Part shown: piece by piece, positions 3,824 to 32,972 of the stretch | How positions within the stretch are numbered: the first letter of the stretch is position 1 | Layout of the letters: each line of letters opens with the position of its first letter | NCBI GenBank assembly: GCA_017548125.1 | Contig: JAFYNK010000092.1 | Span: 1 to 39,048, forward strand | Source: Bacteroidales bacterium | Lineage (GTDB): Bacteria > Bacteroidota > Bacteroidia > Bacteroidales > F082 | DNA: 39,048 nt | Reading direction: 5' to 3' | Translations under genes and position numbers: made by a program | Notes under the pieces: model-generated | Seen by the model: the letters and a program-made list of their open reading frames with translations, nothing else | Database searches by the model: none | What the model was told of the DNA's origin: nothing

Positions 3824-6307
3824 TTATTTACGTTTACGGTTGTCGTGATCTTCGTCGTAATAACCGTTATTATAGCCGTATCTGTTTCTGTAGCCATAGC
3901 CAAATCCGTAGCCATAACCATAGCCATAACCGCCGTAATCATAGCTGTAACGGTAGCCGTAAGCACCTTGATAATTGATACCGTTGACTATCAAGCTGAC
4001 GTTGTATTTTCTTTCTTCCAAGTCTTTGATAACGGCTTCGAATATTCTCTTGTTTGAAACATCTTGGCGTACTACATAGATAGCTGTATCAACATGTTTC
4101 ATCAATAACAATGCATCTGTTACCCACATTAATGGAGGTGTGTCGATGATGATATAGTCATATCTTTCTTTTAACTCTTTGAAGAATTCGTTGCAACGTT
4201 CTGAAGCAATTAATTCTGCTGGGTTAGGTGGAATGCTACCAGCTGTAATAATATCAAGATTAGGTAATTTGCCAGATGGTTGGATAACTTCATCTAATGA
4301 TGCTTTTCCTGATAAATATGAACTGACACCTAATTTGTTGCTGATACCGAATTCTTGATAAATACGAGGTTTACGTAAGTCCATACCAATCAATACAGTC
4401 TTCTTGCCGTACATAGCGTAGATTGATGCCATGTTGATTGAGATATATGTCTTACCAATACCTTGAGAGTCTGAAATTACAGAGAATGTGCATTTTTCTT
4501 TACCTTGAACTATATATTCAATGTTAGTTCTGATAGATCTAAATGCCTCTGATACAGGAGACTTAGGTGAATCGATAACGAATGTCGAACTTGAATCTCC
4601 TTTCTTAGAACTTGTTAATGGGATTTGTCCGATGATAGGTAATTTTGTGATTTTTTCAATATCTTTCTTTTCAAGAATCTTTGTGTTTAAGAGTTCTTTA
4701 AGGAAGATGAATGCTGCTGGAATTGCGCATCCTAATACAAAACATACCAAATATATCATACTTGAACGTGGAGCAATCATTCTTGCAGAAGATATGCGAG
4801 CTTGGTCGATGATGCTGTTGTCAGGGCTGTTACTTGCCATAACGATTTGTGCTTCAGCTCTCTTTTGCATTAAGAATTTATATAAGTCATCGTTCAATGA
4901 GAACTTACGTTCGTAGCCTAAGTATTTGCGTTGTGTTGTAGGAAGTTGTTTTATTTGTTCGTCATAAACGCTGATTTGCTTGTCTAATTCACCGATTGTA
5001 ACGTATGTATTACTAATCATGTTGTCAATGTTTTCAAGCAATTGTTTCTTGGTCTGTATGATTTGTTCGTTTATTGTTTGAACGTTAGGGTTTTTCTCTT
5101 TAGAAACAGATAATATTTTAGATTTCTCTGATGACAACTTAACTAATTCTGCTGCAAGTAAGTTAAGTGTTTGGTCTTGAATACCCATTGCACTTGGTAC
5201 AATAAGCTTGTCGATGTCATCAATGTTTTTCTTAATATAATCTTGGAGATTCTTATAATATTTGATGCTTAATTCTAATTCAGCTTTACGTTTTTCTATT
5301 TGTTTCAAATAGTTGAACATCTCTCTTGATTGAGCATTTAAATCCATGAAGTCATTGCCTTCTTGGAATGTTTGGAGGTCGTGTTCAGCTTTGCTTAATG
5401 AATCTTGGATGCCAATTAATTGTTCGTCAATAAAAATAACTGTGTTTTCTGAAACCAAGTTCTTTTGTTCGAGGTTTCTTTCCAAATATTCTTCTAATAA
5501 TTGGTTGAGATAGTCTGTTATCTTTTGTGAGTTTCCGCCTTGAATTGTAAGTTTCAAGATAGATGAGTTTTTAGTTGTTTGTGCAATAGAAACATTACTC
5601 ATCTCACTTGCAAGGGTAAGGATATTCTTTATGATAAAGCAATACTTGTTGTTGTTGCCGTTTTTATCTGGATTGAAATTGCTATTTAAAACAACGCGGA
5701 ATCTGTTGTATCCATTATAAACCCATTCGCCTAAATTGTAAATGTTGTCAGTTTCTGGGACATTGATTAAGCCTAAGCTTTCATCTTTGGTATAGTCATA
5801 TACTGTACATCTTTTTTCGCTTGTTCTTAAACGATATTTTCCATTATCTAAAAACTCGATGTCGTATCTGACGCCTGTTGTTTGTAATGTATCGTAATCG
5901 ACTTCAACATAGAATGGAGTTTTGGTATATAATTCTGTTGTTGTAAAACGGCCGATGTTATAATATGATACGTTGAAGAAGTTTAATTCCTTTAATGTTC
6001 TTTCTTTAAGTGAGAAAGACTGTAAGATACCGATTTCGTTATCGATATTATTATTGCTCTTGAATGTGAGGCCTGTCATCATAGATGTTGGGTCGATGGT
6101 CATCTTATCTTCTTTGATAAAAACAGATGCTGACACCTGATACACTTTAGGTGTATATCTGTTATAGAAGAAACCGGCGACCAACGCAACTACGATACCG
6201 ATTGCAAATAAATACCAATAGCTGATAACCTTGATGATTATGTTTTTTAAATCGATGCTTTCTTCCTCCATAAATTGAGGAGTGTTTTGTAAATCTGTAT
6301 TGTTCAT
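3824..6307 (-). CDS. Wzc-type polysaccharide co-polymerase / BY-kinase
   Basis: 827-residue inner-membrane protein for control of polysaccharide polymerisation and export. A first membrane helix is at about 30-49, then a long periplasmic part with coiled-coil segments, a second helix at about 516-540, and a cytoplasmic bacterial tyrosine kinase domain. Walker A is near 612-620 (SDSQGIGKTYIS), Walker A' is VLIGMDLRKPR, and Walker B is YIIIDTPP near 720. The tail at about 780-820 is almost pure Gly-Tyr with some Arg/Asn, and is the expected autophosphorylation cluster. The first Gly-Glu-Gly of many Walker A loops is QGIG here. The Wza-type gene lies 19 bases upstream. Confidence 0.92.
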   Translation of the reverse strand: MNNTDLQNTPQFMEEESIDLKNIIIKVISYWYLFAIGIVVALVAGFFYNRYTPKVYQVSASVFIKEDKMTIDPTSMMTGLTFKSNNNIDNEIGILQSFSLKERTLKELNFFNVSYYNIGRFTTTELYTKTPFYVEVDYDTLQTTGVRYDIEFLDNGKYRLRTSEKRCTVYDYTKDESLGLINVPETDNIYNLGEWVYNGYNRFRVVLNSNFNPDKNGNNNKYCFIIKNILTLASEMSNVSIAQTTKNSSILKLTIQGGNSQKITDYLNQLLEEYLERNLEQKNLVSENTVIFIDEQLIGIQDSLSKAEHDLQTFQEGNDFMDLNAQSREMFNYLKQIEKRKAELELSIKYYKNLQDYIKKNIDDIDKLIVPSAMGIQDQTLNLLAAELVKLSSEKSKILSVSKEKNPNVQTINEQIIQTKKQLLENIDNMISNTYVTIGELDKQISVYDEQIKQLPTTQRKYLGYERKFSLNDDLYKFLMQKRAEAQIVMASNSPDNSIIDQARISSARMIAPRSSMIYLVCFVLGCAIPAAFIFLKELLNTKILEKKDIEKITKLPIIGQIPLTSSKKGDSSSTFVIDSPKSPVSEAFRSIRTNIEYIVQGKEKCTFSVISDSQGIGKTYISINMASIYAMYGKKTVLIGMDLRKPRIYQEFGISNKLGVSSYLSGKASLDEVIQPSGKLPNLDIITAGSIPPNPAELIASERCNEFFKELKERYDYIIIDTPPLMWVTDALLLMKHVDTAIYVVRQDVSNKRIFEAVIKDLEERKYNVSLIVNGINYQGAYGYRYSYDYGGYGYGYGYGFGYGYRNRYGYNNGYYDEDHDNRKRK

Positions 6308-9579: not shown

Positions 9580-9587
9580 TAAAAATA

Positions 9588-9652
9588 GGCTAATGACAAA
9601 TGGCTAATGGCAAAAGACTGTTGTCTGTTGACTGTTGACCGTTGTCTGCCGA
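9588..9652. repeat. Intergenic short repeats: ggctaatg family and 7-nt ctgttgt/ctgttga family
   Basis: Bases 9588-9611 carry two copies of a word like ggctaatgacaaa / ggctaatggcaaa. Bases 9618-9652 carry 7-nt units: ctgttgt, ctgttga, ctgttga, ccgttgt and a degenerate fifth. The 7-nt family recurs in frame in the two GHMP kinase genes (30473-30501, 32428-32455, 32786-32813). The ggctaatg family recurs in the radical SAM gene at 23433-23462. Confidence 0.85.
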
Positions 9653-16828: not shown

Positions 16829-18760
16829 TTATTTTTCTTTTATCACTTTCATACAACAATTTCTGCAATCGAAATCCAGTCTGAATCGCCCTTTTTCGTT
16901 GAAGAGATATAAAGATTCTGCAGGCTTGCCTATCTCCTTGCAACATATATTGTTAGCATAACGAACGCAGTGTTTTGTCGTCATCACGACGGTCTCTTCA
17001 TTAGAATGCAGTTTCTCCAATCCGTCTTCTATTATCTCAACGCCGTGACGTTCATAAAACTCTCTCGATTTCTTGTTGATGACATTGCCGAGATAACTTA
17101 AATTATCTTTCGGAAAAATTGCATTTGTCTCTGGTCTTACAAACGTCTCTCTATCATTACGATGCTTCTCAATAAGATAAGATTTTAATTTTTCAACCAA
17201 ATCCTTCTTCATCTCACCTAAAACCGATGCTCTGATGAAATATGCTGTTGTCTCTGACTTGTTGTCTTGTTGTCTTGTTGTCTTGTAGTCTTCAAAATCA
17301 ACGTCAATCTCCTCAACGGAAAATTCCGTATCGCCCCATTGCGACAACTTGCTTTTGATGTTGTCAAGAGCCTTTTCTGTGTTGATAGCGATTTCTTTTT
17401 CTATAGATATATTTGTTGTAATGTATTCTGAATCTTCATTATATAATTTTGCTGACAAAGCAAATCCGTCTTCTGTGTCAGTGAATCTAAGGCTTATTTT
17501 AATCTTTCTGTTGCCATTAGATTTCTCCAGTTCTTTTTCCCAGACATTGTCGTGGTTTCTGAAGATCTTGCTTCCTTCAATCTTGAATCTCGTCGCCATC
17601 GAGATGTCGGAATTACTGCTAATAGTCTGTAACCTAACTCCTTGTTGTCTTGTCGTCTTGTTGTCTTGTTGACTTGTATCAACGGCGTTAACATTGAAAC
17701 CTAGGAGATTGTTTTCTCTGTCCAAGAAACAAAGTCCGTCGCCGTTATGGAGTTCTTTTCCAGTTCTGATGGTGATGGATTTATTCTTGACTTTCTCTAT
17801 CGTGCCGAGATATTCGCCCATTGATTTTGGGGAATAAGGAGCGTCGATATATTTCTGGCGACCGTGGATGAAATAGTCGGTGAAGCCTCTTGAGAATGAT
17901 TTCTCAGGAGCAGGGTAGAACGTAGGGTTGCTTTCGCCGCGTGAGCTTCTGCAGAGGTCGCTGCGTTTTGCAATGACTTCGTCAATTTTATTTCTGTAGT
18001 AAGCAGTGACGTTTTTGACGTAATCGATGTCTTTCAGTCTGCCTTCAATCTTGAAAGAAGAGATGCCGGCATCGATGAGTTCTTCTATGTTTTTGCTGTT
18101 GTTTAAGTCTCTTAATGAGAGAAGATGTCTGTTGCTTATCAGGCGTTTGCCGTCTTTGTTCTCGAGGTTCCATGCGAGGCGGCAAGGCTGAGCGCATGCG
18201 CCTCTGTTGGCAGAGCGTCCGCCGATGACGTGGCTGAGGTAGCACTGACCGCTATATGAGACGCAGAGAGCGCCGTGAACGAAATATTCTAAAGGCACGC
18301 TGGTTTTCGAGCGTATGTCTTTTATCTCGTCGATGCTCAGTTCTCGGGCGAGTACCACTTGAGAGAATCCGACGTCTTCGAGGAACTTCACTTTATCTGC
18401 CTCTATGTTATGACATTGCGTTGAGGCGTGCAGAGCGATAGGAGGCATGTCGTCCATGTTCAACAGCGCCATATCCTGAACGATGAGTGCATCGACGCCA
18501 GCGTTCCAGCAGTCGTAGGCGAGCTTGCGAGCCTGATCCAACTCGTTGTCGAACAACAATGTGTTCATTGTGACATAAACTTTTGCATCGAAGAGAGCAG
18601 CGTGTTTGCACAATGCCTCTATGTCTTCGATGCTGTTGCCCACCTTCTCACGCGCACCAAAACTAGGTCCACCTATATATACTGCGTCAGCGCCATGGTT
18701 GATGGCAGCGATGCCAACTTCTAAATTCTTCGCCGGCGATAAAAGTTCTATCTTTTTCAT
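16829..18760 (-). CDS. U32-family protein, RlhA/TrhP-like RNA hydroxylation factor
   Basis: 643 residues. The U32 signature EYFVHGALCVSYSGQCYLS lies at 158-176, with Cys 166, 173, 189 and 193 as likely iron-sulfur ligands, and a further Cys-rich tail. Annotated historically as collagenase-like peptidases, E. coli members TrhP and RlhA take part in hydroxylation of tRNA uridine-34 and 23S rRNA cytidine. The length and an added C-terminal half are closer to RlhA (653). Two segments, about residues 360-374 and 490-504, are built of an 8-nt tandem repeat and read as Gln/Asp/Asn/Lys/Thr/Arg runs. They look like in-frame insertions into the C-terminal region. Confidence 0.85.
   Translation of the reverse strand: MKKIELLSPAKNLEVGIAAINHGADAVYIGGPSFGAREKVGNSIEDIEALCKHAALFDAKVYVTMNTLLFDNELDQARKLAYDCWNAGVDALIVQDMALLNMDDMPPIALHASTQCHNIEADKVKFLEDVGFSQVVLARELSIDEIKDIRSKTSVPLEYFVHGALCVSYSGQCYLSHVIGGRSANRGACAQPCRLAWNLENKDGKRLISNRHLLSLRDLNNSKNIEELIDAGISSFKIEGRLKDIDYVKNVTAYYRNKIDEVIAKRSDLCRSSRGESNPTFYPAPEKSFSRGFTDYFIHGRQKYIDAPYSPKSMGEYLGTIEKVKNKSITIRTGKELHNGDGLCFLDRENNLLGFNVNAVDTSQQDNKTTRQQGVRLQTISSNSDISMATRFKIEGSKIFRNHDNVWEKELEKSNGNRKIKISLRFTDTEDGFALSAKLYNEDSEYITTNISIEKEIAINTEKALDNIKSKLSQWGDTEFSVEEIDVDFEDYKTTRQQDNKSETTAYFIRASVLGEMKKDLVEKLKSYLIEKHRNDRETFVRPETNAIFPKDNLSYLGNVINKKSREFYERHGVEIIEDGLEKLHSNEETVVMTTKHCVRYANNICCKEIGKPAESLYLFNEKGRFRLDFDCRNCCMKVIKEK
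17256..17292. repeat. 8-nt tandem repeat inside the U32 gene, copy 2
   Basis: About four and a half units of cttgttgt (one degenerate). On the coding strand it reads as an eight-residue period containing DNKTTRQQ. The repeat contains no stop codon in any of six frames. Confidence 0.85.
17641..17678. repeat. 8-nt tandem repeat inside the U32 gene, copy 1
   Basis: The same 8-nt family as at 17256-17292 (cttgttgt, cttgtcgt, cttgttgt, cttgttga, cttg), 350 bases away in the same gene, encoding a SQQDNKTTRQQ stretch at about residues 361-374. Confidence 0.85.
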
Positions 18761-18769
18761 AGTAATATC

Positions 18770-20377
18770 TTACGAATTTATCAATTCTTTTGCTTTTTCG
18801 GTTAATCTGTATGCTTGTTTTGAACTATTAGGTTTGTCCTTGATTGTTGGTTCTATCAAATTAGCTTCAATAAGTGGATTTAAAATGTTTTGTTTGAATC
18901 TGCTTCTATTTTTTTCATTTACATTTTCCATTAAAGAGAATAAAGTCATTCTATCTGTTGTGTATAATAATCCTAATACGATTTCTGCACTTTCTTCATG
19001 GACTTTTTCTATCTTAGGACAGACTTGGGACAAACTTAGGACAGACTTGGGACAGACTTGGGACAGACTTAGGACAGACTTAGGACAGACTGAGGACAGA
19101 CTGAGGACAGACTGGTCTGAATCTGTCTCTTTAATATAAAATGTCATCGTCACTCTGTCGGGTTGTACTTTTTCTTCGATTATAGGATGATTCCATTTGT
19201 TGTCGTCACATCCTTTTATAATGAAATCTGCACCGCTTCCTGCTTTTTCTCCAATGCCGAGCTGCATGAAGAATTTTTGCAAAATAGGATTTCTGCATAA
19301 ACTATGATTTCCTGTGTAAAAATCATCTACGGAAATAAGCATACATCCTGGGTTGCGGAAAGTAATTTTATCTTGTTCTTTTATAACTACAATGTTGCCT
19401 TGCACAGAATAGTTGCAATGAACCAAAGTGTTTGCTAATGCTTCTCTAATTGCTATATGGGCTGATGTTTCTTCATATCTAATCGCTCCATCGAGTTGAA
19501 ATGGAACTGGTAGTGTTTGTGTAAGTTTGTTGTAAACTTTGAAGAAAAATTGATATAGGTTTGCTTCCCATGTGCCATCGGGATATATTCTGTCACTCCA
19601 TCGTTGTTGCGGATTATTGCTCATTTTTTCTTGATAATCTACAAAATACCATGGGGCGCAAACTTGATCTGTAATACTTTCTGTTTTGCCGAACATCAAT
19701 ATGCCTGCTCTTGTAAAACCTTCATTCCCATTTTCTCTGTCAATACGGTATGCTCCTAGTTTACAAAGAAAATCGAAGTCGTCTAATTCGTTCCATGGAT
19801 GATTTTCTTTTTTTAATGAGAAACGCTGACGATATGCCTTCAATGATGGAATGTCTATGTCTTTTATTGAATAGTTAATCAGAATCTGATTGTCGTATGG
19901 TAAAGTCGTGTGGTGGGCATCAGCGAACATTTGCCTGATTTCGGTCTCTGTACAATGATAATCGCCTTCATGATTTCTTTTGTATGTATTCCCAAATGGA
20001 TTTCTACTCAAAAAAACAGGGCGAATATCATAACTTGCTCTTGGAATGCGAAATATTAAAATCCTATTGTTGTCAATAATAGGATCGATAACGTCTCTTT
20101 CGGTTAACATTGTTGCACTTACTTTTTCTTTGTTATGTGCGCAGTCCCAAAAACGTTTTTTATAGATGTTTATTTGCTCTTCTGTAAGATTGTCGGGAAT
20201 ATATTTTTTGTCTTTGTGTTTTATTCCTAATACAATAATACCACCATTAGTGTTTGCTAATGCAGAAAAAGTCTCCCAGAAACTTTCAGGAAAACCTCCT
20301 TTTGCAGATTTAAACTCTAATTCACAATTTTCTGATTCTTTGATTAGATTTCTGATCTCTTTTTCTATTGTTTTCAT
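18770..20377 (-). CDS. AlbA_2 / HATPase domain ATP-binding transcriptional regulator-like protein
   Basis: I use the ATG at 20377 (535 residues, MKTIEKEIRNLIKESENCELEF); an upstream in-frame start would add 20 residues with no domain. The N-terminal AlbA_2 (Schlafen-type) domain is shown by ELEFKSAKGGFPESFWETFSALANTNGG. A GHKL-like ATPase segment (HIAIREALANTLVHCNY) is near residue 310, and a winged-helix-like tail ends the protein. Such proteins are common, poorly understood regulators or defence-linked ATPases in Bacteroidota. Residues about 422-454 are three copies of an 11-residue peptide (SVLSLSQVCPK) encoded by nine 11-nt DNA units. It stops nine bases before the U32 gene, so the two may be cotranscribed. 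Confidence 0.85.
   Translation of the reverse strand: MKTIEKEIRNLIKESENCELEFKSAKGGFPESFWETFSALANTNGGIIVLGIKHKDKKYIPDNLTEEQINIYKKRFWDCAHNKEKVSATMLTERDVIDPIIDNNRILIFRIPRASYDIRPVFLSRNPFGNTYKRNHEGDYHCTETEIRQMFADAHHTTLPYDNQILINYSIKDIDIPSLKAYRQRFSLKKENHPWNELDDFDFLCKLGAYRIDRENGNEGFTRAGILMFGKTESITDQVCAPWYFVDYQEKMSNNPQQRWSDRIYPDGTWEANLYQFFFKVYNKLTQTLPVPFQLDGAIRYEETSAHIAIREALANTLVHCNYSVQGNIVVIKEQDKITFRNPGCMLISVDDFYTGNHSLCRNPILQKFFMQLGIGEKAGSGADFIIKGCDDNKWNHPIIEEKVQPDRVTMTFYIKETDSDQSVLSLSSVCPKSVLSLSQVCPKSVLSLSQVCPKIEKVHEESAEIVLGLLYTTDRMTLFSLMENVNEKNRSRFKQNILNPLIEANLIEPTIKDKPNSSKQAYRLTEKAKELINS
19016..19114. repeat. 11-nt tandem repeat, nine units, inside the AlbA_2 gene
   Basis: Nine consecutive 11-base units of aggacagactt or gggacagactt. 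Because 11 is not a multiple of three, three units make one 11-residue peptide period. Units 1-6 (19016-19081) end in tt and units 7-9 (19082-19114) end in tg. Unit 2 carries one internal change (gggacaaactt). Confidence 0.95.
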
Positions 20378-20603
20378 AATTTTAATTTTTGGTTTGTATT
20401 GGTTGAAAATATTTAGTTTGAAAGATTTGGAATACATTATATCTCATATACTTAACGAAACAAATGTATATCGAGTAATTACTTCTGCAAAGATAATTAT
20501 TTATTTCTGTAAAATTGTTCCTTTGATACAAAAAATCTGTTTTTTAATATCTTTTTTCTCTTAGTTTTTTTACATTTGCAATGTGAAACATTCTCTTTAT
20601 GTG

Positions 20604-30047: not shown

Positions 30048-30959
30048 TTATTTTACCCAATGAATTTGATATTCAGTATTTTGCCAATATTCTTTTGTTT
30101 TGTCTATATCTTTTGTAAAACCTAAAAGGAAACCTCCTCCGCCAGCGCCGCACAGTTTCACCTGGAATCCATCTTTGTCGATATCAAAGAAGAAAAATTC
30201 TTTAACATTTTCTGGAATGGTATGTCCAAGCATTTCGGTTTGCATCTTCGATAATTCTGATAAATTGTTGAAAAATTCATCATCGTTATTTTTGATTAAA
30301 GATGAAATACATTCGTTTACAAGCGGAATATATTTGTTGTTGAATTTCTCTAGATATGAATTGTCGTTTCTTAACTCTTTGAATTTCTCTACCAAAGGAG
30401 CTGTCGGGCTTTTTATTTTTGTGTCAATCAAGAAGATATGAATGTTGTCCGACATAAAATCGTTGGACAGTAGCTGTTGTCCGTTGTCTGTTGTCCGTTG
30501 TCCATTCAGAATGAAAGGTTTACCGTAATAACATTGCAGAGGGTCTATTCCTGAGCTGCTGCCATGAAAATAATTCTCCATTGTTGCCAGAAGCTCGATA
30601 AGTTCGTTAGTATCTTCAATATCAATCAGTTTATATCTATCGTAGATGGCAGCGACTAAGGCGCCCGAACTTCCTACGCCGTAGCCGTTTGGGATGTTAG
30701 AGTCGAAGAACAAGCCAGCGTTTATTTCCGTTTCCATCCTTCTTAAATCTAAAATCCTGAATCTGTCGTTTGTACGAAGATAATCGAAGTATTTTGAAAG
30801 GTTGCTATTCGATTCCATAGCACTTTCGCAAGCTTCGTTCGAGATGAAGCTCCATTCTCCGCTCACTGAATAATAAGGAATTAGCAGTGCGTTGGAGCCG
30901 AATATCATAGAATATTCGCCAAAAAGAATGACTTTTCCGTTATACTTTCTGTTATCCAT
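30048..30959 (-). CDS. mvk: Mevalonate kinase (GHMP family)
   Basis: 303 residues; phosphorylates mevalonate with ATP. The glycine-rich GHMP motif is at 90-100 (PNGYGVGSSGA) and the mevalonate-kinase-like FHGSSSGIDP is at 131-140. Near the C-terminus, KLCGAGGGGFLLGF is GHMP motif 3. The start overlaps the mvaD stop by eight bases. At residues 153-163 the peptide GQRTTDNGQQL comes from four 7-nt repeat units and looks like an in-frame insertion between the substrate loop and the next strand. Assignment as the first kinase, rather than phosphomevalonate kinase, rests on the HGxxSGIDP stretch. Confidence 0.87.
   Translation of the reverse strand: MDNRKYNGKVILFGEYSMIFGSNALLIPYYSVSGEWSFISNEACESAMESNSNLSKYFDYLRTNDRFRILDLRRMETEINAGLFFDSNIPNGYGVGSSGALVAAIYDRYKLIDIEDTNELIELLATMENYFHGSSSGIDPLQCYYGKPFILNGQRTTDNGQQLLSNDFMSDNIHIFLIDTKIKSPTAPLVEKFKELRNDNSYLEKFNNKYIPLVNECISSLIKNNDDEFFNNLSELSKMQTEMLGHTIPENVKEFFFFDIDKDGFQVKLCGAGGGGFLLGFTKDIDKTKEYWQNTEYQIHWVK
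30473..30505. repeat. 7-nt tandem repeat inside the mevalonate kinase gene
   Basis: Four and a half units of (c/t)gttgtc. On the coding strand it encodes RTTDNGQQ. It is the same family as the intergenic array at 9618-9652. Confidence 0.9.
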
Positions 30960-31953
30960 TGTTATCGTCTATCCATTTGTTATTGTAGCAATAATCTTTC
31001 AATACGTTTTCAATGAAATCATGTACTTTTTCGGAACAAGAATCAGGATAGAGAAGATGGACGTTAGGTCCTGCGTCTAATGTGTAACATATTGGAAGAC
31101 AAGTCTCTTTTCTGAAATCCAAAACCTTGTCTATGATATTTACGGTGTTTGCTTCTTTAAGTGTGTATGATGGAGTGGAAGTTGCCATTAAGTCGTGAAG
31201 TTGATTTGCTTCGCTTTCGGCAATCTTTATAAAACCTTCCAAATCACCTTGTTTTAATATTGTTAATAAATCTTCAGTATTTTTTCTTGCTGTAGCGTAG
31301 CGATTTTCTGCCATAGGATGGTTGTTCATCAAGGAATGGCCGGCTCTGCTTGAGACGCTTTTTTCTTTAGAACTGACAATCAAAATGCTATCGTGATATG
31401 ATTTGAAGACAGGATGAATGATGTCGGCGATTGGTATTGCGTATTCGTCAGAACTTTCTGGTAATGAAGGAGTTTTACCCCATAAGGTCATTGTAGGATA
31501 AACGGAACGCGCTGCACTTCCAGAAGCCAATCTTGAAAGGAAAGACGCTTCTTGAAGGTTTATCTCTTTGTCTTTTATTTCTAACAGACAGAGTATCAAT
31601 GCGCTCATTGACGATGCGCTCGATGCTATTCCTGAAGAATGAGGAAACGAATTGTGACTCTCTATATTCAGATGAAGTCCGTTCAGGAATGTGAAATATT
31701 CTTTATTTTCTTGAAGATATTTTTCTATTTTGGATTTAAAGGCTTGGTTTTCTTTTCCTTCGAAATAGAAATCCATTTCAATAGAATTGAGGTTTTCGGT
31801 CTTGGAATAAGTCACTTTAGTCTCTGTGTAACAGTTGTTTAAAGTTAGACTTATAGAAGGATTGTTAGGAAGTTGATTTCCGTGTTTTCCCCAATATTTG
31901 ACGATTGCAATATTAGAAGGGCTGCGTTTTATTATTTGGTTATTATTCATCAA
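30952..31953 (-). CDS. mvaD: Diphosphomevalonate decarboxylase
   Basis: 333 residues; converts mevalonate 5-diphosphate to isopentenyl diphosphate, CO2 and phosphate using ATP. Diagnostic stretches are SPSNIAIVKYWGKHG (11-25), NNPSISLTLN (30-39) and the phosphate-binding PHSSGIASSASS (104-115). The catalytic Asp region is LDAGPNVHLLY. Either of two adjacent Met codons may start it. It sits between the two GHMP kinase genes in the mevalonate cluster. Confidence 0.95.
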   Translation of the reverse strand: MMNNNQIIKRSPSNIAIVKYWGKHGNQLPNNPSISLTLNNCYTETKVTYSKTENLNSIEMDFYFEGKENQAFKSKIEKYLQENKEYFTFLNGLHLNIESHNSFPHSSGIASSASSMSALILCLLEIKDKEINLQEASFLSRLASGSAARSVYPTMTLWGKTPSLPESSDEYAIPIADIIHPVFKSYHDSILIVSSKEKSVSSRAGHSLMNNHPMAENRYATARKNTEDLLTILKQGDLEGFIKIAESEANQLHDLMATSTPSYTLKEANTVNIIDKVLDFRKETCLPICYTLDAGPNVHLLYPDSCSEKVHDFIENVLKDYCYNNKWIDDNNG

Positions 31954-32015
31954 AGTTTAAGGTTTGAGATTTAAAGTTTGAGGTTGATTTTCTTAAACTT
32001 TAAATCGAATAATTA
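31954..32015. repeat. Loose aaagtttaagg/tttgagg repeats between mvaD and the GYDIA kinase gene
   Basis: The spacer repeats aaagtttaaggtttgag and aaagtttgaggttg, then an inverted-like ttaaactttaaat. It is another member of the collection of short repeated words that fill spacers here. No promoter is evident. Confidence 0.55.
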
Positions 32016-32972
32016 TTACAATACAATATCTTTATATCTAAAGACCACGTTAAGTCCTTTAACTTCAAAATATTTTTTAACTTTTTCTAACTCCCATTCG
32101 GTGGCTGCCATGAAAAAATCGCCGCCCCATGCTCCAAGAGATTTTACCTCTCCTTCAAAATCGCTGAAATATTTCTTGAGTCTCTTGAGACCTAGGCATG
32201 ATGATATTATTTCTTCGTGCGTTTTGATGAAATAACAGAAATCTCTTAATGACTGTAAGTCAGGCAAGATTTTGCTTATCTCCGAAATGGATTTCACTTC
32301 TTCGCTGAAGTCTTTTTTCTTGTCGAGAAAAGCTTTCACCTCGTTGGAGGAATTTTGTTTATGACCTTGGTAGATAAAGAAAAGATTGTCTTTAAACTCA
32401 GGGTCGAAAGATACGGGAGTGATTGTTCTGTTGTCTGTTGTCTGTTGACTGTTGATTTCATAAAATATCGGGCCTTCGGCTTTAGCGCAGGCGATGTCGT
32501 AGCCTGAGCCTTTAAACGTGAAATCCAATAGCTGATAAGGATTGATGTTGGCCCATTCCGAGATGTTATTAATTAATGTCGAGCTGCTGCCAAGTCCCCA
32601 CTGCGGGTTGAAATCCAGATGACAGCTGATTCTATAGTCGCTGGCTTCTGTGAAGATATTGTCGTTCAACGATTTCAGCTGTCTTAAAATGTTAGAAAGA
32701 CGTTCTGCTTTTTCAATGTCGTCGCTGTTGATGACGCTGAAATTAGTCTTGTCTAAAACAGCCGAAAACCAATTCAAATACAAATCTGTTGTCTGTTGCC
32801 AGTTGTCCGTTGACTTTACATAAGCATCCCAATAAATAAGGTTCTCGTTTTTATCTAATGTCTCAACATTCATGCTCTGTCCGAATTTCAAAGGAAGAGC
32901 CAGAGCTGTCGCCCCTTTCAAAACGAGATATTCACCCGTCAACAAGAATTTTCCATTAGATTTATAGTTCAT
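32016..32972 (-). CDS. GYDIA-family GHMP kinase, probable phosphomevalonate kinase
   Basis: 318 residues. The N-terminal GKFLLTGEYLVLKGATALALP (7-27) and glycine-rich QWGLGSSST (124-132) mark a GHMP kinase, and GSGYDIACA (155-163) places it in the GYDIA family seen in Bacteroidota mevalonate clusters. Since the cluster also has a mevalonate kinase and a decarboxylase, the missing step, phosphomevalonate to diphosphomevalonate, is its likely reaction (inference). Two segments, residues 54-63 (STDNWQQTTD) and 173-182 (INSQQTTDNR), are made of the 7-nt repeat family and probably lie in surface loops. Confidence 0.85.
   Translation of the reverse strand: MNYKSNGKFLLTGEYLVLKGATALALPLKFGQSMNVETLDKNENLIYWDAYVKSTDNWQQTTDLYLNWFSAVLDKTNFSVINSDDIEKAERLSNILRQLKSLNDNIFTEASDYRISCHLDFNPQWGLGSSSTLINNISEWANINPYQLLDFTFKGSGYDIACAKAEGPIFYEINSQQTTDNRTITPVSFDPEFKDNLFFIYQGHKQNSSNEVKAFLDKKKDFSEEVKSISEISKILPDLQSLRDFCYFIKTHEEIISSCLGLKRLKKYFSDFEGEVKSLGAWGGDFFMAATEWELEKVKKYFEVKGLNVVFRYKDIVL
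32428..32455. repeat. 7-nt tandem repeat inside the GYDIA kinase gene, copy 1
   Basis: Four units: ctgttgt, ctgttgt, ctgttga, ctgttga. It encodes SQQTTDNR on the minus strand. Confidence 0.9.
32786..32813. repeat. 7-nt tandem repeat inside the GYDIA kinase gene, copy 2
   Basis: Four more degenerate units: ctgttgt, ctgttgc, cagttgt, ccgttga. It encodes STDNWQQTTD on the minus strand. Greater divergence than the other copy suggests it is older. Confidence 0.85.

Follow-up and report, generated by a model that had tools for sequence, protein, structure and literature searches.

The window analysed here, a 39,048-nucleotide (nt) stretch of a Bacteroidales genome (G000, 2.73 Mb; GTDB lineage F082), carries short arrays of a seven-base repeat, GTTG-W-C-Y, inside two GHMP kinase genes and between genes. 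We interpret these segments, with a probability of roughly two in three, as copies of a very small spreading DNA element that survives in genes only where it leaves the frame open and the protein tolerates it. The element would consist of four iterons, either GTTG-W-C-Y with a spacing of 7 or GTNG-W-C-Y-N with a spacing of 8, and would have multiplied in the window genome and its close relatives, both between and within genes. The repeat has burst in this lineage, prefers four units and lies in frame in conserved enzymes; orthologous loops can be empty of it, and in other genomes the same loops are occupied by other repeat types.

Four-unit repeats in the window

On the plus strand, GTTG cores at spacing 7 occur in groups of four at 9620-9644, 30476-30500, 32430-32454 and 32788-32812. 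A preliminary description of this DNA had placed such repeats in mvk, twice in a GYDIA-type kinase gene and between mrdA and rodA, with four to five units per copy. All four places hold up with four units each; what needs revision is the loose count, the number being nearly fixed at four, as in a discrete element. The mvk gene (30048-30959, minus strand; PF00288, with a match to mevalonate kinase 2x7i at E 1.5e-13) contains the copy at 30473-30505, which is read GQRTTDNGQQ. The GYDIA-type GHMP kinase gene (32016-32972, minus strand; the family name comes from the earlier reading of the sequence, and Pfam is blank at E 1e-5) contains one copy at site 1 (32786-32813, read STDNWQQTTD; in the array starting at 32788 one unit is degenerate, with the spacer CCA) and another at site 2 (32428-32455, read SQQTTDNR). 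All three copies in the kinases are read in frame from the minus strand, and the TTDN and QQ peptides are indeed there, in shifted registers and not as the single TTDNxQQ that had been described.

The fourth copy, on the plus strand at 9616-9648, lies in the gap between mrdA and rodA (gene names again taken from the earlier reading) and is preceded by GGCTAAT-type heptads at 9583-9614. Two four-unit octad copies stand in frame in a further minus-strand gene (16829-18760), one of the GTTGTCTT type at 17258-17292, in a loop that holds heptads or palindromes in relatives, and a second at 17641-17677. This gene encodes a U32 peptidase, a family assigned through its apparent orthologue in L130 (PF01136) and not from a scan of the window protein itself.

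Order-1 Markov shuffles of the window (n = 200) produced no four-unit array and on average 0.005 arrays of at least three units, and no array of at least three units appeared in order-2 shuffles of fetched genome stretches. The whole window genome holds 37 overlapping matches to three units of GTTGNCY, which make up 23 arrays. The reversed pattern gives 19 matches, or 5 with a stricter pattern, a control that is not independent because a GTTG heptad read backwards overlaps itself. An Rfam scan of the window returned no family at the gathering score.

Kinase loops in relatives

The GYDIA kinase is present in 145 of the 149 genomes of the family; the kinase alignments are drawn from members of the same genus. 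Site 1 is occupied in G000 and in the relatives G089 and G102, and the loop is short in G147, where the copy is absent, as well as in all 16 of the more distant genus members displayed. Site 2 carries a heptad array in G000, G089, G102 and G100. In 7 of the 22 aligned genus members that are more distant, the loop is taken up by a palindrome, CTTCGACAAGCTCAGG with its complement, which reads ALRQAQGP...VVEPVEGP. In the close relative RGIG7428, a metagenome-assembled genome (MAG), the loops at mvk and at GYDIA site 2 are both short, and the site 1 loop has ten residues and is non-repetitive. Motifs flanking the segments are intact in the orthologues that do not have them. Because these loops are short in RGIG7428, in G147 and in more distant members, the segments have been dispensable in evolution, and the alignments support the earlier proposal that they are insertions in tolerant loops. 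The outcome named there as contradicting it, the presence of these residues in other genera with no DNA periodicity, did not turn up in these alignments within one genus.

A burst in one lineage

A strict three-unit pattern is positive in 24 of the 149 family genomes, and the matches are concentrated in a few of them. Nine of the 75 genus genomes hold 25 to 334 matches each (G000, 37; G147, 53; G089, 318; G102, 334; G100, 88; G096, 49; G106, 153; G107, 25; G130, 60), and the other 66 hold 0 to 2. Elsewhere in the family, 8 of 74 genomes in other genera have 1 to 6 matches, and in a sample of the phylum 11 of 295 other genomes have any. Most of these genomes are draft assemblies, and two, the RGIG genomes, are MAGs. 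Among the rich relatives, the seven in which a kinase match was found have the highest kinase identity (61-82%); in G130 no GYDIA kinase match was found. Two genus members with no pattern matches, G014 and G028, contained no arrays, even of two units, in 225 kb. In a tree of the relatives, which has a weak base (support 0.30 and 0.37) and does not include G130, G041, with no GTTG matches, is placed beside G106.

Outside chromosomes, a search of plasmids with one leader-bearing copy plus its flanks gave no matches. Nine stretches of viral contigs match a 29-base pattern: four with four units in a common context, one other with four units, and four that are runs of 5 to 8 units; the leader described below was seen in none of the nine. 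The four IMG/VR contigs that share a context (L221, L224, L225 and L226) each have exactly four GTTGTCC units.

Different repeats occupy the same loops

We compared ten loops in the window genome and seven relatives, eight genomes in all; the loops were chosen because they hold a GTTG or octad copy in G102 or in the window's own genome, and 8 of the 80 cells are without data. A recognisable heptad, octad or palindrome is present in 42 of the 72 remaining cells and in none of 10 outgroup cells, and in 7 of the ten loops, mvk, PrmC and HldD among them, more than one repeat type is found across the genomes. The HldD loop holds GTTG heptads in G102 and degenerate ones in G089, octads in G000, G107 and G096, CAACAGC heptads in G147, and the GTAGAGACG palindrome in G100 and G096. 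The PrmC loop of G090 is 90 nt, long yet not repetitive. As measured by shared 7-base words, unrelated loops of one genome (mean 0.140) are as alike as the same loop in different genomes (0.125), and pairs that differ in both share fewer (0.088; permuted mean 0.094). None of 1000 permutations reached the observed sharing within genomes (p=0.001), and the result was the same (p=0.001 each) without G102, without G102 and G000, and without G102, G000 and G089; cells under 21 nt were left out of this test.

These observations bear on an alternative that is compatible with a spreading element and that we regard as possible rather than probable, namely that the loops were filled once and were later overwritten with the genome's current repeat, through template switching at ectopic sites or through gene conversion among dispersed copies. 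The loops stay occupied while the repeat type changes by genome, the loops of one genome resemble each other as they do their orthologues, and the octad array in the HldD loop of G096 retains the leader seen in G102 and G089 with its spacing changed between 7 and 8. On the other side, palindromes of unrelated sequence also enter the loops and intergenic leader-bearing copies are numerous, and new insertion is therefore needed as well.

Unit number and architecture of the element

Unit counts were taken from whole-genome patterns of three, four and five units, by differences, with arrays of at least five taken from the listed places; the strict pattern scores a copy with one degenerate spacer as shorter. 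The nine rich genomes contain 624 arrays of at least three units, 463 of at least four and 18 of at least five, which leaves 445 with exactly four and 161 with exactly three. The preference is strong in G102 (149 of 181), G089 (127 of 169), G106 (66 of 85) and G096 (20 of 27), and in fetched stretches 99 arrays of at least three GTTG cores divide into 73 fours, 24 threes and 2 fives. Of 24 arrays of the period-8 form, GTNGWCYN, 19 consist of exactly four units. In the samples of G102 and G089, four-unit arrays outnumber two-unit ones (29 versus 19 and 24 versus 9, respectively). In G360, a genome outside the class, there are three runs of 9 to 14 units. Because its copy number is nearly fixed at four, the GTTG family has the behaviour of a discrete element, unlike a repeat that drifts freely.

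Many G102 and G089 copies have a leader near TGGACAAAGTCT upstream of the first unit, and most copies end in GTTGAC. Copies of the heptad are direct repeats of about 30-45 nt, not palindromes of 100-150 nt; they lack the terminal inverted repeats of miniature inverted-repeat transposable elements, apart from AAAGTC/GACTTT at the ends of some copies, and their profile is not that of a repetitive extragenic palindromic (REP) sequence with a GTAG or CGTC tag. Ten of 82 GTTG copies (L103, L110, L111, L115, L119, L121, L126, L132, L002 and L006, from G102, G089 and G000) stand in a promoter-like setting, in which an A-tract leader is followed by the four units, 8-9 bases and TAnnTTTG, which we take to be the -7 box of Bacteroidetes promoters; these copies may serve as an upstream promoter part. 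At L125 in G089, divergent pairs of GTTG copies stand leader to leader at 5940-6051 and 481-575, one pair carrying the leader variant ACCCAAGG. At L001, L017, L103, L109 and L131, GTTG copies directly adjoin palindromic repeats of the CTTCGACAAGCTCAGG and GTAGAGACGC types, as if one element had landed beside another.

Could each array be an ordinary microsatellite, built in place by slippage with a seven-base preference such as a polymerase footprint? The units are short and arranged head to tail, tandem repeats in these genomes are predominantly of period 7, followed by period 8 (38, 57 and 27 period-7 arrays in three samples, against 0-2 for periods 6 and 9), and heptad over-representation and the footprint idea are both in print (PMC4679880, PMC4692102). 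Many other heptad families, mostly stop-bearing and mostly intergenic, are indeed more variable in length and reach 214 nt; we claim the four-unit rule for the GTTG family and its octad form only. For the GTTG family itself, unit number does not vary and fall off with length as slippage would have it, except that threes are about as common as fours in G100 and G130. The overall preference for four, the rarity of two-unit arrays in G102 and G089, the leader in common and the presence of one GTTG unit at unrelated loci and in few relatives all speak against this account, and we consider it unlikely, slippage being disfavoured for this family by the unit counts.

A further proposal is that the number four is maintained by DNA structure, with four iterons folding into a defined form, as in the G-quadruplexes proposed for GGGAATC heptads of Xanthomonas. 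The four-unit preference itself would fit, and single strands of some copies fold well (z down to -5.3). The GTTGWCY unit has no GG, however, and the G-quadruplex reason cannot hold here because the units are without a G tract; the window copies at 30470-30505 and 17258-17292 fold at 0 kcal/mol; and the real W/Y combinations are no better than column-permuted ones (26, 64 and 75 of 200 at least as good in three sets), which leaves hairpin pairing of the W and Y positions unsupported. We therefore think a structural reason for the number four very unlikely.

Copies inside genes

The in-gene share of the arrays, a count that the preliminary description had suggested, was taken from samples of two relatives with open reading frames (ORFs) called by a simple longest-frame script. 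Fifteen of 37 arrays in 370 kb of G102 and 12 of 26 in 305 kb of G089 lie in ORFs, and 18 and 8, respectively, are intergenic; the in-gene share is below the coding fraction (0.90 and 0.88). Of the 27 in-gene copies, 25 are oriented so as to read Q/T/D/N/S/G and not V/C/L (binomial p 5.6e-6), and selection therefore does touch the peptide. The earlier contrast between a spreading repeat and selection for the peptide thus survives in its first half, the spread, and has to be softened in its second. That the hydrophilic TTDN/QQ loop is itself selected as useful to these enzymes is hardly credible in spite of this orientation, as the same DNA is intergenic in the arrays just counted, relatives have short loops or unrelated peptides such as ALRQAQGPKVVEPVEGP in these places, and the hosts are unrelated enzymes. 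A stop-content comparison (arrays open on one strand, 34 genic and 48 intergenic; stop-bearing arrays, 6 and 90; Fisher p 1.6e-8) is in part circular, since an array that is closed in a frame cannot lie within an ORF of that frame, and we do not lean on it.

The hosts are conserved proteins. In an NCBIfam scan of ten G102 hosts, five pass the equivalog cut-off (WecB, PrmC, dihydroorotase, RibD and ADP-heptose epimerase), with the insert-bearing RibD scoring 368.6 bits against a cut-off of 156.35 and dihydroorotase 679.5 against 535; among the other five, an amidohydrolase passes the subfamily cut-off, a radical SAM protein is below its cut-off, and three have no match. Pfam adds a CN-hydrolase, a NUDIX protein, a U32 peptidase, a radical SAM protein, an N6 methylase, an MG2-domain protein and two proteins with Por sorting tails.

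Two further arrangements were noticed. At L008, L020 and L022 in G000, copies occupy corresponding positions close to the end of three proteins whose C-terminal sequences are similar. At 19013-19113 of the window, an 11-base repeat array, encoding SVLSLSQVCPK peptides, lies in frame within the ORF at 18770-20437, and a like 11-base array is found at the equivalent place in G100.

How the copies may have arisen

In the reading that we favour, some replication or repair machinery would copy the iterons, and copying would need them. Genic copies would last where the array keeps the reading frame open and the protein can accommodate a short hydrophilic stretch. Because survival in genes needs these two things, both the repeated occupation of particular loops and the one-sided orientation would be expected.

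Several observations weigh against a small spreading element. RGIG7428, which is equally close, has no arrays in the 12.9 kb examined. The four-unit rule is weak in G100 (29 of 59, with 30 threes) and G130 (15 of 35, with 16 threes), the smaller G000 sample has 5 two-unit versus 4 four-unit arrays, and the window kinase copies are without a clear leader. Linkage between units is weak (smallest permuted p = 0.003 over 45 pairs; the all-A combination in 8 of 57), and a master copy is not apparent. Of the only two families tried as copying enzymes, neither tracks the burst: Y1 transposase was not found in 4 of the 9 rich genomes (G100, G096, G106 and G107, all draft assemblies) and reverse transcriptase in 3 of the 9, some of them incomplete; both were accordingly set aside as the mover. 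The closest orthologous DNA is 81-83% identical, too diverged for insertion junctions to be drawn, and neither an empty site at the nucleotide level nor a target duplication was obtained. Finally, some copies are older than the divergence of several relatives, as with the HldD leader common to G102, G089 and G096, and turnover in place therefore accounts for part of the pattern. Since several loops already held repeats when the relatives diverged, conversion or rewriting of older arrays in place probably contributes alongside the spread of the element.

The lineage provides a good series for asking how heptad repeats spread, and its conserved enzymes, repeatedly tagged at the same loops, constitute a natural map of insertion-tolerant sites. 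With relatives that carry different repeat types in the same loops, the movement of dispersed heptads becomes testable at strain level.

Comparison with known systems

The GGGAATC heptads of Xanthomonas and the GGGGA(C/T)T heptads of Nostoc share the preference for four units, which their authors link to G-quadruplexes; in Xanthomonas the variation falls at positions 5 and 7 and the conservation at 1-4 and 6 (PMC4692102), as in GTTG-W-C-Y. These heptads are G-rich and reach 26 units, and the Xanthomonas ones are 89-93% intergenic (PMC4692102), whereas GTTG arrays exceed four units in 18 of 624 cases and 27 of 63 sampled GTTG arrays lie in ORFs. A preference for four that exists without G tracts, and is kept as the spacing goes from 7 to 8, argues against the G-quadruplex as the general reason and points instead to a copying or recognition step. 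A tentative and rather doubtful extension is that four-iteron heptad and octad elements form a general class of bacterial micro-mobile DNA, found in distant phyla with unrelated units (GTTGWCY here, GGGANTN in Xanthomonas, GGGGAYT in Nostoc; the shared layout is documented for Xanthomonas only) and with a common copying machinery. Were this so, in-gene copies would be the footprint in proteins of a machinery that recognises sets of four units spaced by 7 or 8.

The TAACTGA heptads of Beggiatoaceae, Cyanobacteria and five Bacteroidetes, for which the source gives no known mechanism, are likewise dispersed, sporadic in their taxonomy and partly in ORFs (PMC4679880). They differ in that most copies in the Beggiatoaceae genome stand immediately before a start codon, those in ORFs are found mainly towards the ends of the proteins, and arrays have two to six units and elsewhere up to 43 (PMC4679880). 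REP sequences, with their REP-associated tyrosine transposases, are also tiny dispersed repeats found in part within genes (PMC3733652); palindromes found beside heptads or in their place look similar to these, but the heptad copies are non-palindromic and the Y1 transposase does not track them. The tandem repeats of Borgs, too, lie in frame in ORFs and create new, mostly disordered stretches, and homologous proteins differ in their repeat (PMC9879509). Borg repeats are reported as arising independently (PMC9879509), whereas here one unit family recurs at many unrelated loci.

We found no published description of the GTTG repeat, or of the exchange of repeat types in shared loops, in a search that left the subscription literature mostly uncovered. 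The precedent for selfish repeats in frame in conserved genes is provided by the Rickettsia palindromic elements, in which, as here, a short repeat occurs both between genes and in frame in unrelated conserved metabolic genes (PMC2229807, PMC10969869). Those elements are palindromes of 105-146 or about 150 bp, in contrast to the direct iterons of about 30-45 nt described here, and in our lineage different repeat types take turns in one loop. The GTTG repeat looks like a new variety of selfish DNA within genes.

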